A DNA stretch of 35,782 nucleotides, from positions 1 through 35,782 of the forward strand of contig JAUMXO010000008.1 of NCBI GenBank assembly GCA_030529135.1, read 5' to 3'. The notes below the pieces were generated by a model, which saw only the letters and a list, made by a program, of their open reading frames with translations, ran no database searches and was not told the DNA's origin. Positions 14,007-33,608 of the stretch are shown in pieces (within the stretch, counting starts at the first letter, position 1; every line of letters begins with the position of its first letter). This DNA comes from Candidatus Saccharimonadota bacterium (GTDB lineage: Bacteria; Patescibacteriota; Saccharimonadia; Saccharimonadales; Saccharimonadaceae). The position numbers were made by a program, and so were the translations under genes.

Positions 14007-14789
14007 GTGGACTTTTTAGAGAAAATTAACGAGAATCCATTTAAGGATTTATACTGGAATGTTCCAGATGAGCAGAAAAAAGGCGAGCTAGCAATTATTG
14101 GTGGTAACGAAAAAAACTTTCGAACGTCGATAAAAGTTTCGGAGTTTGTGACTGCAAATTTTCCTCTGAAAGAGATAAGGACTGCGCTCCCTGATAGGTT
14201 AAGGAACAAATTACCATCACTCCCTAATTTTGTTTTCTTTAAAACCACTGAGGTAGGCACTTTTTCTGACCCAGACGAGATAAAAAATTTGATTGAATCG
14301 GTAGATTTTTCTTTAATTATAGGTGACTTATCTAAAAATTCTGTTACTTCTAAGGCTCTACTGGACGCTCTTCAAAATTCCGAAGAACCGGTGCTAATTA
14401 CACGCGATGCAGTGGATTTAATAGCTGAGATAAAAAAAGAATCTTTAATGATGCGAACAGAGCTTATAATTATGGCTTCTGTCGTACAATGGCAAAAGAT
14501 CCTACATAATTTATACTATCCAAAAATTTTACAACCTTCACAGTCGTTAATACAGGTAGCCGAGAGTTTTCATAAGTTTACTTTAAGTTATCCAGTGCAA
14601 GTAGTGACCCTGCACGAAGGACAAATTATTATCGCAAAAAACGGAAGAGTAGTGGTGGTAGCGTTAGAAAAATCTGGATACGCTCCGCTCACGTTCTGGA
14701 ATGGGGAACTTGCAGCAAAAATTGCAGCAATGAATATTTTCAATCCGAATCAATTCATCGAAGCAACTGTCGCGGCATTATTTAGATAG
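14007..14789 (+). CDS. Degenerate sugar-kinase-fold protein, NAD(P)HX dehydratase (NnrD)-like
   Basis: 260 residues, GTG start with AAAAGGAGG (13994-14002) upstream. The order KGELAIIGGNEKNFRTSIKVSEFV, EIRTALPDRLRNKLPSLPNF, SLIIGDLSKNS, EPVLITRDAVDLI resembles the C-terminal YjeF/NnrD domain (repair of hydrated NADPH), which normally has GG...GA near the start, IGPGLG, and LDADAL. Here the GPGLG loop reads GDLSKN and DADAL reads RDAVDL, and the NNAGDGD nucleotide/catalytic motif near the C-terminus is not visible. It may be a regulatory or retargeted relative rather than an active dehydratase. Its 3' end overlaps the opposite pgsA-like gene by 12 bp. Confidence 0.45.
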   Translation: MDFLEKINENPFKDLYWNVPDEQKKGELAIIGGNEKNFRTSIKVSEFVTANFPLKEIRTALPDRLRNKLPSLPNFVFFKTTEVGTFSDPDEIKNLIESVDFSLIIGDLSKNSVTSKALLDALQNSEEPVLITRDAVDLIAEIKKESLMMRTELIIMASVVQWQKILHNLYYPKILQPSQSLIQVAESFHKFTLSYPVQVVTLHEGQIIIAKNGRVVVVALEKSGYAPLTFWNGELAAKIAAMNIFNPNQFIEATVAALFR

Positions 14790-15404
14790 CTTTTTTTCAA
14801 TATCCACGGCGTCTCTAGAGATATTATGGCGGCGTTGGGAAAGAAAAATCCAGAAGAAGAGCGAACCGGCAAGGCCGATGCCCATAATAATATTTTTGAC
14901 AAGAAGCGGCCATTCGGAAGCATATAAAGTCCAGACAGCCATCGTAAAGAGAATCGCGAGATACACGTTGCGACGAACAAGTATAATTTTTTTAGCCAAT
15001 TTAAAATTACGGCGCATGAGGCATTTTTTAGTACAATCATCTGGATGACCCATGAATTTACCATAAACTACAAATTCTAAAATCAATCCGATGATTGCAT
15101 ACGGAATTAGCATGCAAAGCCCAGCAATTAAGTTAACGCGAAGAGAGAAAAATAGGACCATGGCAAGAGCGATAAAACCATCGGCAAACATATCATATTT
15201 AGCAGCATATTTGCGATACTTTGGGGTCTTATTTTTGGGAAAAGGCCACCTAGTAGCGCAAGTACCATCAAGAGCATCGGTGATTTCGCCAATCATATAC
15301 ACAATAAAAGCAGCATAAAGCGGTGCACCAGAAAAACTCATCACGGTTAGTGTGATCGCCAAGATAATCCTGGAAAAAGTTAAAATATCTGCTAAATATC
15401 TCAT
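14778..15404 (-). CDS. CDP-alcohol phosphatidyltransferase family protein (PgsA-like)
   Basis: 208 residues from ATG 15404, chosen because it lies exactly 6 nt after TATAAT like its neighbours; a GTG at 15410 is in frame. The family swaps CMP of a CDP-alcohol for another alcohol to make phospholipids, in the membrane. Five or so hydrophobic segments (ILAITLTVMSF, AAFIVYMIGEI, GFIALAMVLFF, LIAGLCMLIPYAIIGLILEF, AILFTMAVWTLYA). The motif DxxDGxxAR...GxxxDxxxD appears as DALDGTCATR...AAKYDMFAD: an extra Thr precedes the Arg and the Gly is Ala, while all four metal-binding Asp remain. Located downstream of a glycosyltransferase, so membrane glycolipid synthesis is a natural shared job. Confidence 0.72.
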   Translation of the reverse strand: MRYLADILTFSRIILAITLTVMSFSGAPLYAAFIVYMIGEITDALDGTCATRWPFPKNKTPKYRKYAAKYDMFADGFIALAMVLFFSLRVNLIAGLCMLIPYAIIGLILEFVVYGKFMGHPDDCTKKCLMRRNFKLAKKIILVRRNVYLAILFTMAVWTLYASEWPLLVKNIIMGIGLAGSLFFWIFLSQRRHNISRDAVDIEKKLSK

Positions 15405-15410
15405 ACCCAC

Positions 15411-15419
15411 ATTATATCA
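15411..15419 (-). promoter_or_regulatory. Leaderless extended -10 promoter of the pgsA-like gene
   Basis: On the minus strand TGA-TATAAT, then 6 nt (GTGGGT) and ATG at 15404. It abuts the palindromic element at 15421. Confidence 0.72.
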
Positions 15420-15420
15420 T

Positions 15421-15535
15421 AATAATTAGATAACATTTTCTCGACACGTTCGTGCCGGCCCATCGTCATGGGCGGCACTTCACTCTTCTTGCTCCCGTCG
15501 TCGCAAGATGGTCTCAAAAATATTATCTAATTATT
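15421..15535. repeat. Palindromic repeat element, copy A
   Basis: Outer arms 15421-15433 and 15523-15535 are a perfect 13-bp inverted repeat; the right arm is the last codons of the glycosyltransferase gene, so the left arm looks like an inverted copy of host sequence. Inside an AT-rich setting lies a GC-rich core: hairpin 15452-15478 (11 bp with one bulged G at 15457, loop CGTC) and a second hairpin CTTGC/GCAAG (15489-15508). The core 15456-15474 matches 25882-25900 in copy B at 16 of 19 positions, with an A-T pair replaced by G-C. Confidence 0.65.
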
Positions 15536-16740
15536 TCTTCTAATTTATCCATGATATTAGATACTCTGACTTCATCGCGATGTTTTAGCATTGCGCGAGA
15601 CATTTTTTCGATTTTGTCAGGGTTGTTGATAATATCATTGATGGCGGTGGCGATAGATTGTGGATCGGGCCCAGCCGCTAAAACAGCACCTGAAGGCGAA
15701 ACGACCTCTTTCATATCTGGATCTACGTAAAGAGCGGGTGTACCGGCAGATTCAGCCTCCACTAAAGTCATAGGATAATTGTCGAAATTATACGAGGCAA
15801 GCACGTCTAGATGACTTTTCAGAATCTTAGGGTAGACCTCCTTGAAGGACTTAGCGCCGTGGAAAAAGACGTTGAGATGATGTCTTTCGACATATTTTTT
15901 AGCACGATTTAAATCGTTTCCATCACCGTAAACGTCCAGGCGGTATTTACCTTCAATATATTCCAAAGCTTTGAGAAACGGCATGATGCGCTTTTCTTTA
16001 GAGACACGCGAATGCCAGATAATTTTTAGAGTTTCGCCTGGCAATAAGACTTTTGGCTCAAGATTAGACACGAAATATTCGTCCAAAACTCCGTTCGGTA
16101 AGGTTTCAACGGATTTTTTTACCCCGTAGCTTAAAAGTTTTTTCTTAAAATGTTCGGAAGGAGTAAGGACGAGATCGGAAAAAGAAGCATGATTAACCAT
16201 AAGAGTCCACATTTTAACGGCAGCGATGGTGGTGGCAAGGTAATTATCCCGCTTAATTTTAATCGGGTGGGGAAGATACCAAGAATGGAACCAATTAAGC
16301 AGTGTCGCCACAATGGTTTTGAAGCCTTTGGGTACTAGGTTCTGCTCGCCAATATCCTCACGACCATGCATGACTTGGATGGTTTTAATTTTGAATTTTT
16401 TACCAAGACGCAGTCCGGCAATGGAGCAGCCGGCTTCGTAATGGACGTAAAAACAATCGAAATCTTTTAGCTCTGGGTGCTCTTTTTGAAGTTGTTTCTC
16501 GATGATGTGTGGTTTTCTGGCGATTGGAGTAAGACCTCTGCCAATTAGGCGGCAAGATTTGACCGGGAAAATATTTTCTTTGGCTAGTTTTTGCCGCTCC
16601 TCCTCAGTTTTGGGATAACTGGATGAAAAAACGTAGACAGTATGACCGCGTTTTTCTAATTCTTTTTTTTGCGCAGCGATAGACGTGACAATACCACCAG
16701 TGAGATCTAAGAAACAATCCGAAAAAACCGCAATTTTCAT
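15523..16740 (-). CDS. Glycosyltransferase family 4 protein
   Basis: 405 residues. GT-B fold retaining glycosyltransferase. N-terminal half: GGIVTSIAAQKKELEKRGHTVYVFSS and TIQVMHGREDIGEQN. C-terminal half: IIWHSRVSKEKRIMPFLKALEYI, FFHGAKSFKEVYPKIL, and the donor-site motif FDNYPMTLVEAESAGTPALYVDPD, where the first Glu of the EX7E motif is Asp. The layout is like diacylglycerol glucosyltransferases and mannosyltransferases. Acceptor and sugar cannot be read. The neighbour downstream is a phosphatidyltransferase, favouring a glycolipid product. Start is 6 nt after TATAAT. Confidence 0.85.
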   Translation of the reverse strand: MKIAVFSDCFLDLTGGIVTSIAAQKKELEKRGHTVYVFSSSYPKTEEERQKLAKENIFPVKSCRLIGRGLTPIARKPHIIEKQLQKEHPELKDFDCFYVHYEAGCSIAGLRLGKKFKIKTIQVMHGREDIGEQNLVPKGFKTIVATLLNWFHSWYLPHPIKIKRDNYLATTIAAVKMWTLMVNHASFSDLVLTPSEHFKKKLLSYGVKKSVETLPNGVLDEYFVSNLEPKVLLPGETLKIIWHSRVSKEKRIMPFLKALEYIEGKYRLDVYGDGNDLNRAKKYVERHHLNVFFHGAKSFKEVYPKILKSHLDVLASYNFDNYPMTLVEAESAGTPALYVDPDMKEVVSPSGAVLAAGPDPQSIATAINDIINNPDKIEKMSRAMLKHRDEVRVSNIMDKLEEIIR

Positions 16741-25299: not shown

Positions 25300-25374
25300 T
25301 ATTTTATCCCAAGTTACAACCTCCCTCACCTCTTATAGCTCACCCCTTATAATCTTGATTTTTTAGGGGAAATG

Positions 25375-25383
25375 TGCTATAAT
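25375..25383 (+). promoter_or_regulatory. Leaderless extended -10 promoter of der
   Basis: TGC-TATAAT, 6 nt (GAAGAT), then ATG 25390. The -10 lies inside an upstream in-frame ATG reading, which shows that the ATG at 25372 is not the true start. Confidence 0.78.
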
Positions 25384-25389
25384 GAAGAT

Positions 25390-26808
25390 ATGGGACGCCT
25401 TCCGATTGTAGCTCTAATTGGTCAAACAAATGCTGGAAAATCCAGCATTCTTAATCGGATGGCAAAGAAGAATATCGCAATTGTAGCACGCGAGGAAGGC
25501 ACAACGCGTGATAACGTAGTAGCGACAATCGATAATTCTTTTATTTTGATTGACACTGCTGGACTAAAAGATCCTACGGACGAATTTGAAGCATCTATAA
25601 AGGAGCAGATTGATGACGCGATAGAATCTGCCGATGTAATTTTAGTAACCCTGGATTCTTCGAAATATTTTGATCAGAAAGACGCAAAAATTGCCAAAAA
25701 TGCCTTGAGGTCTAAAAAAGAAGTTTTTTTAGTCTTAAATAAAAGTGATCTTAAGGAATCTTTACCGATCACAGAGTTTAGGGCGCTTGGTATTGCGCCA
25801 GAAAAGACTTTTTATGTTTCGGCGACCACTGGAGCAGGGATGAGGGAGTTGGAAATCGCCCTTCAGGGACACGGGTCGCTTCGGCCCGTCGTTACGGGCG
25901 AAGCGCCCTCATTCTCGGTCGTGACCTCCGAAATGTCCCGGAAGGGCGATTCCAAGTCCCTTACCATTGCGCTCATTGGACGGCCGAATGTAGGAAAAAG
26001 TAGTCTTTTTAATGCGTTGGGGAAGAAACAGCAAGCGATCGTAAGTTCAAAACAGGGGACGACTAGAGACGTAAATCGAGTTTTAGTAAAGTATAAGGGG
26101 CAGGAGATTGAAATCCTTGATACCGCAGGCCTCAGAAAACCTGGCAAGAGGGAAGTAGGGATTGAAAAATTTTCAGCAATCCGAACGCTTGCCGCGATTG
26201 AAGAGTCTGATATTTGCTGTCTTTTAGTCGATTCTAGTGAGCCGCACGTAAAATTAGATCAAAGCCTCGCTGGGCAAATTATCGATGCCGGTAAAGGAAT
26301 TATCGTAGTAGTGACAAAGTCTGATTTATTAGAGAATGCTGAGCCAACAAATTATTTTGGTGAAGAAAATATCAAAAATCGCACTGCGGCAGATTTTCTT
26401 TTAGATGATCTGGAACGTGATTTTAATTTTCTGCCTTACGCACCGGTGATTTTGACCTCATCTGAAACGGGAAAAAATGTAACGCAGATTTTTGAGCTAA
26501 TTTTAGAAGTGGATAAGGCGCGCCACACTAAAATAAAAACTGCTGAACTAAACAAAATTTTAAACGAAGCGGTTGTAGAACATACCCCAGCTGGTCTCAA
26601 AAATACAAGACCAAAACCAAAATATTTAGTACAAACCGATACTTGCCCGCCATGGTTTGTATTGCATGGACATAATCTCGAGCTTCTGCATTGGTCTTGG
26701 AAAAGGTTTTTAGAAAGAAAGATTCGTGAAAAATATGCAATGGTAGGAACACCGATCATGTTTTCATATCGGAGTGACGGAGAAAATAATCGTGGGCAGA
26801 AAGGTTAA
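25390..26808 (+). CDS. der: Ribosome-assembly GTPase Der (EngA) with an inserted linker
   Basis: 472 residues. Der has two tandem GTPase domains and a KH-like domain and acts in 50S assembly. G domain 1: ALIGQTNAGKSS (residues 8-19, canonical GRPNVGKS altered), EEGTTRD, DTAGL, NKSDL. G domain 2: ALIGRPNVGKSSLFNAL (about 193-209), KQGTTRDVN, DTAGLRK, VTKSDLL. KH-like end: RPKPKYLVQTDTCPPWFVLHGHN and VGTPIMFSYRS. The linker between the G domains contains about 34 residues (about 155-188) encoded by a GC-rich palindromic element in frame. ATG 25390 is chosen over 25372 from the -10 position. A 21-codon ORF follows after 1 nt. Confidence 0.95.
   Translation: MGRLPIVALIGQTNAGKSSILNRMAKKNIAIVAREEGTTRDNVVATIDNSFILIDTAGLKDPTDEFEASIKEQIDDAIESADVILVTLDSSKYFDQKDAKIAKNALRSKKEVFLVLNKSDLKESLPITEFRALGIAPEKTFYVSATTGAGMRELEIALQGHGSLRPVVTGEAPSFSVVTSEMSRKGDSKSLTIALIGRPNVGKSSLFNALGKKQQAIVSSKQGTTRDVNRVLVKYKGQEIEILDTAGLRKPGKREVGIEKFSAIRTLAAIEESDICCLLVDSSEPHVKLDQSLAGQIIDAGKGIIVVVTKSDLLENAEPTNYFGEENIKNRTAADFLLDDLERDFNFLPYAPVILTSSETGKNVTQIFELILEVDKARHTKIKTAELNKILNEAVVEHTPAGLKNTRPKPKYLVQTDTCPPWFVLHGHNLELLHWSWKRFLERKIREKYAMVGTPIMFSYRSDGENNRGQKG
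25851..25953 (+). repeat. Palindromic repeat element, copy B, in frame inside der
   Basis: Outer arms 25851-25871 and 25934-25953 form an inverted repeat of about 20 bp with one mismatch and one indel. The core hairpin 25873-25908 has 14 pairs with two single-base bulges and loop TCGTTA. The stretch 25882-25900 (CGGCCC..TCGT.A..GGGCG) matches copy A at 16 of 19 positions, and the stem bases differ in a compensating way (GTGCC/GGCAC in A, CTTCG/CGAAG in B). The element is translated as part of the Der linker (SLRPVVTGEAPSFSVV) with no stop. Confidence 0.7.
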
Positions 26809-31301: not shown

Positions 31302-33608
31302 ATGTCTAAAAATTTAGTAATAGTAGAGAGCCCGGCGAAAGCACATACAATTGAAAAATATCTTGGCTCGGATTTTAAAGTGCTAGCTTCGGTTGGCCAC
31401 ATCAGGAAAGACACCAAGGTAGATAAGTCTACTTTTGATGTGACTTACGAAATTGATCCAGAACACAAATCTATTATTACTGAGCTAAAAAAAGAAGCTA
31501 AAAAGGCCGACAAAATTTGGCTCGCGACTGATGAAGACCGTGAAGGTGAGTCAATTTCTTGGCATCTATGTGAAGTTTTAAATTTACCTAAAGACACCGC
31601 CAGAATTACTTTTCACGAAATTACTAAGCCAGCACTAGAGGAAGCTATTAAAAATCCGCGTATAGTGGATATGAATATGGTAGCCTCGCAACAAGCCAGA
31701 CAAACCTTAGACATGTTGGTAGGATACGATCTCTCTGATATGGTACGAAAAAAAGTACCTGGCGCAATTAGTGCTGGGCGAGTACAATCACCAGCATTAC
31801 GTTTAGTCGTGGAAAGAGAAAAAGAAATTGAAAAATTTGAGAGTAAATCTTCCTTTAAAATTACTGGTAAATTTCATAAAGACACTGATTTTGATGCCTC
31901 TTATGATGGGGAAGCACCAAAGGACGAGGCTACCGCTACCAAACTCTTGGAAGACTTGACAAAATCTGATTTTATTGTGGAAAATGTAGAGAAAACTGAG
32001 GGGAGTAAGGCCAACCCAGTACCTTTCACCACAGCATCTCTACAGATTGAAGCCAATGCCAAACTCGGCTTTACTTCTCGCACCACAATGAGTGCAGCAC
32101 AAGGACTCTATCAGGCTGGCTTGATCACCTATCATAGAACCGACTCCCTGAATTTATCTAAACAAGCTGTGGGCGCAATTGCGAGTTATATAGAAGTGAA
32201 TTTTGGCAAAGAATACTTAAAAGTCCGCACATTTAAGACCAAAGATGCTTCCGCGCAAGAAGCTCATGAGGCAATTCGCCCAACTGATGTTACACGAACT
32301 TCCGCGGGAAAAAACGACTACGAAAAGCGGCTCTATAATTTGATTTGGTCGCGCACGGTGGCTACTCAGATGGCCAACGCTAAAGTCGCCAAAACCACCA
32401 TTACTTTATCTAATAAATTTACCGCTAAAGGTGAAGTGGTAATATTTGACGGGTTTTTGAAGATTTATGGCAAGAGTAAAGATTTGGAGTTGCCAAAGGT
32501 CTCTAAGGGTGACGCCATTAAATGCCTGTCGCTTACGGCTAGACAGAACTTTGCCAAGCCGCCAGCCAGATATACCGAAGGCTCTCTGGTTAAAAAGCTC
32601 GAGGAGCTTGGAATCGGACGTCCGTCTACCTATGCTTCGATTATGACAGCTATCCAAGCGCGTGGATATGTAATAAAAGGCGAGTCTGAAGGAGAAGAAC
32701 GTGAAGTTATAGAACTAACTTCACAAAATAACAAGATTACTCGCAATGTAATAAAAGAAAAATATGGCGCTAATAAGGGTAAGCTGGTTCCGACGCCGAT
32801 CGGGGAACTAGTAGCGGGGTTTTTGACTGATAATTTCAAAAACATCGTAGACTACAAATTTACGGCAAACATCGAGAAAGATTTAGATTTAGTAGCAGAT
32901 GCTAAACTTGAACGCGTAAAGATGTTGAAGGATTTTTATGGTCCTTTCCGTGATACCGTACTAATAGCACAGGGCGTAGAGAGATACAATAATGCTAGAT
33001 TGCTCGGGCATGATCCAAAAACTGGTAAGCCAATCTATGCTAAAGTCGGCAGAAATGGTGGTTTTATCCAGCTAGGCGACAACGAAAAAGAATCCGGCGA
33101 GAAACCAAGATTTGCACCATTACCAAAAAGAAAGAGCACCAAAACAGTGACTTTAGAGCAGGCACTTTCGCAATTAGAACTCCCGGCTTTACCGCGTAAT
33201 CTTGGCAAGGCGCCAGACGGTACAGAGATTATTGCCGCCAGTGGACCGTTTGGGCCGTATCTTAAAGGTGGTAAGTATAATATACCGATGAAAGATTTTG
33301 ACCCTTACACTGTGACTTTTGAAGAAGCTTTACCGCTTTATCAAGCTAAGATTGATTCAATTATCGCTGACTGGGATGAGATTATGATTATCAATGGTGC
33401 CTATGGACCGTATATTAAGGGGCCAGGCAGACGGAATAATGTAAAGGTTCCAAAGGAAATAGATCCAAAGAAAATTACTCTGGAACAAGCCGAAGAAATG
33501 TTAAGAAATAAACCGAAAACCTCCAAGACTCGCCGAGGCGGGAGAGGGGGGAGAAGAAAAGCTACCGCCGCTAAGAAGAATAATAGAGAAATTACTAAAA
33601 AATCCTAA
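31302..33608 (+). CDS. topA: DNA topoisomerase I (type IA)
   Basis: 768 residues. TopA relaxes negative supercoils. TOPRIM domain: NLVIVESPAKAHTIEKYLG (residues 4-22) and WLATDEDREGESISWHL with the DxD metal site. Type IA core: QQARQTLDMLVGYDLS, KVPGAISAGRVQSPALRLVVEREKEIE, and the catalytic Tyr277 in LITYHRTDS. C-terminal half has topoisomerase C-terminal repeats with the F/Y-GPYLKGG pattern (SGPFGPYLKGGKYNIP, NGAYGPYIKGPGRRNNV) in place of zinc fingers, and a very basic tail (KTRRGGRGGRRKATAAKKNN). This zinc-free, repeat-type C-terminus is usual for actinobacterial and CPR TopA. Confidence 0.97.
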   Translation: MSKNLVIVESPAKAHTIEKYLGSDFKVLASVGHIRKDTKVDKSTFDVTYEIDPEHKSIITELKKEAKKADKIWLATDEDREGESISWHLCEVLNLPKDTARITFHEITKPALEEAIKNPRIVDMNMVASQQARQTLDMLVGYDLSDMVRKKVPGAISAGRVQSPALRLVVEREKEIEKFESKSSFKITGKFHKDTDFDASYDGEAPKDEATATKLLEDLTKSDFIVENVEKTEGSKANPVPFTTASLQIEANAKLGFTSRTTMSAAQGLYQAGLITYHRTDSLNLSKQAVGAIASYIEVNFGKEYLKVRTFKTKDASAQEAHEAIRPTDVTRTSAGKNDYEKRLYNLIWSRTVATQMANAKVAKTTITLSNKFTAKGEVVIFDGFLKIYGKSKDLELPKVSKGDAIKCLSLTARQNFAKPPARYTEGSLVKKLEELGIGRPSTYASIMTAIQARGYVIKGESEGEEREVIELTSQNNKITRNVIKEKYGANKGKLVPTPIGELVAGFLTDNFKNIVDYKFTANIEKDLDLVADAKLERVKMLKDFYGPFRDTVLIAQGVERYNNARLLGHDPKTGKPIYAKVGRNGGFIQLGDNEKESGEKPRFAPLPKRKSTKTVTLEQALSQLELPALPRNLGKAPDGTEIIAASGPFGPYLKGGKYNIPMKDFDPYTVTFEEALPLYQAKIDSIIADWDEIMIINGAYGPYIKGPGRRNNVKVPKEIDPKKITLEQAEEMLRNKPKTSKTRRGGRGGRRKATAAKKNNREITKKS

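Follow-up and report, generated by a model that had tools for sequence, protein, structure and literature searches.

Between the end of a glycosyltransferase gene and the start of a pgsA-like gene of a Candidatus Saccharimonadota bacterium lies a long palindrome (element A), which raises the question of how a repeat could acquire outer arms that appear to be made of the adjacent gene end and an inverted copy of it. The window analyzed here, i.e., the whole stretch of 35,782 nucleotides, comes from a 787 kb draft assembly of 23 contigs and contains a second palindrome (element B), which is inserted in the gene encoding the GTPase Der (Table 1). As the first-pass annotation had claimed, positions 15456-15474 (CGGCCCATCGTCATGGGCG) and 25882-25900 (CGGCCCGTCGTTACGGGCG) are identical at 16 of 19 bases, and the pair A15462-T15469 of A is replaced by the compensatory pair G25888-C25895 in B. 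The outer stems of the two elements are also, as stated there, unlike in sequence, with each still pairing: the arms of A are complementary at 18 of 19 positions, while the pairing between those of B is interrupted by a 1-nt bulge and a few mismatches. Element A is intergenic, with the glycosyltransferase stop codon in one arm and its other end close to, but outside, the TATAAT that precedes the pgsA-like gene. The distance of 2 nt given previously between this end and the -10 region was corrected, as the stem end at 15421 lies 4 nt from the TATAAT and 1 nt from a TG extension. Judging from its sequence, this TATAAT may function as a promoter element; a similar sequence is kept in two uninserted relatives.

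Table 1. Positions of elements A and B and of neighbouring features in the window
Feature	Position	Strand	Remarks
Element A, whole palindrome	15421..15535	- (element orientation = minus strand)	Covariance model match 15427-15529, E 4e-30
A, outer stem P1, pgsA-side arm	15421..15439	.	Likely inverted copy, from uninserted relatives
A, core with hairpins P2 and P3	15440..15516	-	
A, P3 tip CCCATCGTCATGGG with compensatory pair 15462/15469	15459..15472	-	
A, outer stem P1, glycosyltransferase-side arm	15517..15535	.	Likely host sequence: gene end and stop codon
TATAAT of pgsA-like gene, adjoins A	15411..15416	-	Putative promoter role, from sequence
Element B, whole palindrome, in frame inside Der	about 25843..25960	-	Covariance model match 25852-25953, E 5.4e-24
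B, 5' arm of P1, host sequence (RELEIALQ of Der)	25843..25868	.	
B, P3 tip CCCGTCGTTACGGG	25885..25898	-	
B, 3' arm of P1, inverted copy of 5' arm	25931..25960	.	
Der GTPase reading frame, reads through B	25372..26808	+	
Glycosyltransferase, stop codon within arm of A	15523..16740	-	
pgsA-like gene, downstream of A	14778..15410	-	

BLAST searches with A and B found more copies in the same genome, in agreement with the proposal that the palindromes belong to a family, and copies were present in 26 of the 60 genus genomes searched. A covariance model, from whose training set B was left out, identified at least 13 family copies in this genome and 8 to 23 copies per genome in five relatives (a few weak matches counted in); within the window, A and B were the only good matches. 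With this model, 83 of 294 genomes of the class were found to be carriers, all of them in one Saccharibacteria family (six genera). A and B are copies of a high-copy, structured palindromic family of about 95-100 nt, which is, as far as searched, confined to one Saccharibacteria family. All Der homologues in named records come from Candidatus Saccharibacteria, and ruminant gut is the source of many of the closely related ones. Read in element orientation, stem P1 encloses a core made up of the hairpins P2 and P3, and many copies have a GA/GA internal loop. At the Rfam gathering score, the only matches in the window were two tRNAs, and no Rfam family matched the elements. A literature search, with most subscription journals outside its reach, found no description of such elements in Saccharibacteria, and the mobile hairpin family is apparently previously undescribed. 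A second, shorter palindrome type (core like GGACCATAAGCTTGGCCGAACGGCCTCGAGCGTGTCC; L276, L277, L278, L279 and L280) was found at the same sites in related genomes, sometimes nested with remnants of other palindromes. In another genus, elements occur as pairs in opposite orientation about 250 bases or less apart (L301/L314 and L308/L320 in genome G249; L309/L330 and L304/L326 in G365).

Among the 120 copies dissected (115 after removal of near-duplicates), 96 lie within long open frames. When inserts are measured against the best uninserted relative, their net length is divisible by three at 34 of 37 sites; A is among the exceptions, as expected because it is located outside a gene. The host genes, named by sequence similarity, include those for Der, LeuRS, IleRS, ValRS, TsaD, TypA, LepA, TruB, QueA, GyrA and TopA, among others. 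Insertion in genes is tolerated because several frames of the elements lack stop codons and because their lengths preserve the reading frame. Splicing or excision from the mRNA was ruled out, since the reading frames are open and the net lengths are multiples of three. A match to a viral contig (L333) was a chance match within a coding gene. At several hot spots, different subtypes occupy the same loop in many species, i.e., the Der linker (25843-25960), loops of TopA and a loop of LeuRS (L002, L068, L085 and L086); the TopA hot spots are uninserted in the window (about 32385-32423 and 32718-32765).

Comparison with uninserted Der proteins showed that RELEIALQ, encoded by the 5' arm of B, aligns with xxKLKxxLP, while GDSKS of the 3' arm is extra. 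The claim that the arms consist of host sequence plus an inverted copy of it therefore holds for B. At A, the end of the glycosyltransferase runs into the element and uninserted relatives show a single junction, of the type TTAGAGCAATATATTAG joined to TGATATAATG, but the assignment of the host arm is less certain than for B because the sequence is AT-rich and partly self-complementary. Arms of this kind would be best explained by the insertion of a hairpin combined with fold-back copying of the adjacent host strand, a mechanism that we consider to have about an even chance of being correct. The element, folded as a hairpin, would first become attached at one side of a break or of a replication gap. 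Its 3' end would then fold back and prime copying of the neighbouring host strand over about 10-22 nt, and this end would be joined to the other side, giving the order host, element, inverted host copy, host. Subsequent strand switches could flip the core. Hairpins can arise through template switching, which can also invert their spacers (PMC8604942, PMC8794818), and template-switch (quasi-palindrome) mutations share with the elements inverted copying of a neighbouring strand, arm homogenisation and spacer inversion (PMC8604942, PMC8794818); those mutations, however, act on existing inverted repeats, whereas here a conserved mobile core is found at each site.

Fold-back copying would give an inverted rather than a direct duplication, with the copy on either side. 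Copies without arms, or a lack of further copies, had been named beforehand as evidence against this architecture, and many copies were found, nearly all of them with arms. The median complementarity score was 23.25 for true left and right flanks and 8 for mismatched flanks, and scores of at least 8 were found in 95% of copies compared to 9% of controls, with arms of about 22 bp. In a stricter test with the 115 unique copies, complementarity of the left and right arms was confirmed (p=3e-62), while direct repeats, as left by a target duplication, were at control level (p=0.18). Both results argue for fold-back copying, as does the pairing that persists in the outer stem alone, beyond its inner part (p=5e-28). 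Arms at different sites are unrelated, apart from those at orthologous sites and those of a few copies in terminators, which are similar (L185, L193), and the arm that resembles uninserted relatives can lie at either side of the gene, which, together with the in-frame net lengths, further supports this mechanism. Among coding copies compared with uninserted relatives, the host-like arm was upstream in 12, downstream in 11 and unclear in 15, with assignments resting mostly on relatives that are 70-80% identical; at the 23 assigned sites, the other arm is the inverted copy. For example, one arm is host-like and the other extra in ValRS (L069), where RFE is conserved, in an aminotransferase-like gene (L232 vs L283) and in a GatA-like gene (L233 vs L282). 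That the host arm would always be the 5' one in the mRNA seemed true in the first cases inspected by eye but fails systematically (12 vs 11). No clean empty/filled pair above 90% identity was found inside a gene, which, along with the fact that no mobilising enzyme was found, counts against fold-back copying. An intergenic comparison between sisters (L185 vs L274/L275) also yielded no clean empty site, as the whole terminator differs.

The arms could also be older than the insertions, if elements entered the loops of pre-existing hairpins such as terminators or natural quasi-palindromes. Several intergenic copies do lie within terminators, there is a small excess of stem score at the sites, and a natural inverted repeat (GAGCACGG..CCGTGCTC) is present at the GatA site that lacks an insertion (L282), although this repeat could also be a remnant of a lost element. 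The excess amounts to a stem score of 6.7 at uninserted sites vs 6.3 at control positions in the same genes, far below the arms of about 22 bp, and most uninserted coding sites show no arms. Pre-existing hairpins as targets were rejected on these scores and we regard them as an improbable origin of the arms. Short hairpins were seen at the uninserted sites L051 (ValRS), L095 (TruB) and L282 (GatA), and these could be remnants of lost elements.

Comparisons of closely related genomes indicate how the elements change once inserted. At one site, genome G186 (L207) and the less related G188 (L203) share the element orientation, while in G187 (L208), the sister of G186, the orientation is opposite and the flanks align only in the flipped orientation. 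A core flipped in one of three close genomes fits the later core inversion expected under fold-back copying. Between orthologous copies, arm changes affected one side in 49 cases and both sides in 9, which argues against concerted evolution as the main cause of arm pairing. The same counts bear on whether the stem was built or kept through compensatory mutation by selection on folded RNA (or DNA), rather than by copying. This could account for two-sided changes such as AAAGCAAATAG/CTATTTGCTTT to AAAGCAAACAG/CTGTTTGCTTT, for two-sided changes in at least one sequence at 18 of the 23 pairs predicted by RNAalifold (with P2 poorly captured by that sequence alignment), and for a bulge of preferred strand and position. 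The orthologous arms, however, change mostly on one side, and compensatory change alone would not give site-specific arms of which one matches the host protein, so selection on the fold is an unlikely explanation for the pairing. Of the two mechanisms suggested in the first-pass annotation, strand switching is still the best given the core inversion and the few two-sided arm changes, while a TnpA/REP transposon is unsupported.

The bulge in the stem fits fold-back copying less well. At least one 1-nt bulge within 20 nt was found in 98 of the 115 copies, with 99 bulges on the 5' strand of the element and 34 on the opposite, 3' strand (p=1.5e-8). Since some of the copies are orthologous but all were counted as independent, the p-values overstate certainty. 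Bulges on the 5' strand are most often located 12-14 nt from the inner alignment end, whereas mismatches are evenly spread. Of the 66 copies with a mid-stem bulge on this strand, 52 have A or G as the bulged base. The 5' outer arm also tends to be purine-rich, whatever the gene orientation. That the bulge keeps to the 5' strand of the element whichever arm was copied argues against fold-back copying, and the preferred strand is not accounted for by plain copying. The inner stem, which is site-specific in the genus of the window, is partly shared between sites in the genera g40 and G354. In g40, the bulge lies at the border between an inner part, which recurs at different sites, and an outer part that is specific to each site. 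In G354, different sites have most of the stem in common, which also speaks against fold-back copying, as the stem there travels with the element. The outer stem of the G354 copies L305, L311, L316, L322 and L329 is nearly identical across sites (about CGAACCATTRCTTCCGCGC), unlike in the genus of the window. Tentatively, a dedicated process could be involved, in which the target is duplicated in inverted instead of direct form, a single unpaired base is required or left near a fixed place in the stem, itself built from host DNA, and the ends are rewritten from each new host site. We know of no class of transposition that makes an inverted target duplication with ends rebuilt from the host.

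Two classes of enzymes were considered as mobilisers, in searches of draft genomes where absence is no proof. In a retroelement, an RNA copy would be reverse transcribed at the target and snap back on the host strand; the core has a structured RNA-like fold, and reverse transcriptase genes, mostly open frames of about 350-450 aa, are present in 39 of the 60 genus genomes. With a fixed RNA strand, however, the host arm would be expected on one side, while it was found on either side of the element, and no reverse transcriptase was found in this draft genome or in several high-copy ones (e.g., G004, G026, G046 and G055). Reverse transcriptase was rejected as a general mobiliser, and a retroelement origin seems quite improbable. 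Y1 (TnpA/RAYT) transposases typically act on hairpins that contain an unpaired base, and REP elements moved by these enzymes resemble the elements described here in being short imperfect hairpins with many copies. The REP-type tyrosine transposase that had been suggested was not found: Y1_Tnp (PF01797) was detected neither in this draft genome nor in more than 2 of the 60 genus genomes, in a search that was positive in E. coli and four other controls. With no Y1 enzyme found for the elements and copies located mostly inside genes, they differ from REP elements; the absence from 58 of 60 genomes largely refutes a Y1 transposase as general mobiliser, and movement by such an enzyme appears very improbable.

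Among known systems, Rickettsia palindromic elements (RPEs) and the protein-coding palindromes of Wolbachia are about 100-150 bp, form long stem-loops and lie in frame in conserved genes of small-genome bacteria (PMC2229807, PMC10969869). The Saccharibacteria elements are also palindromes that fold into a long stem-loop and are also inserted in frame in conserved protein genes, but they occur in a different phylum and probably represent their own sequence family. Compared by description, they may further differ from RPEs in terminal repeats built from each host site and in the preferred 1-nt bulge. By analogy, the elements can be said to behave like RPEs; the likeness concerns form and in-frame insertion, and the elements were not classified as RPEs. 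Bacterial MITEs (Correia/NEMIS, ERIC and RUP) are likewise short repeats that are non-autonomous, carry no gene of their own and have paired ends; the Saccharibacteria elements show an inverted instead of a direct target duplication and were not classified as MITEs because the direct duplication is lacking. How protein-coding palindromes such as RPEs spread is, to our knowledge, not known. The insertion mechanism of the Saccharibacteria elements is testable, given more than 100 copies with readable junctions, a core inverted between sister genomes and the hot spots found in essential genes. In these reduced-genome bacteria, inserts of mobile origin, about 20-40 residues long, are present in many essential proteins.
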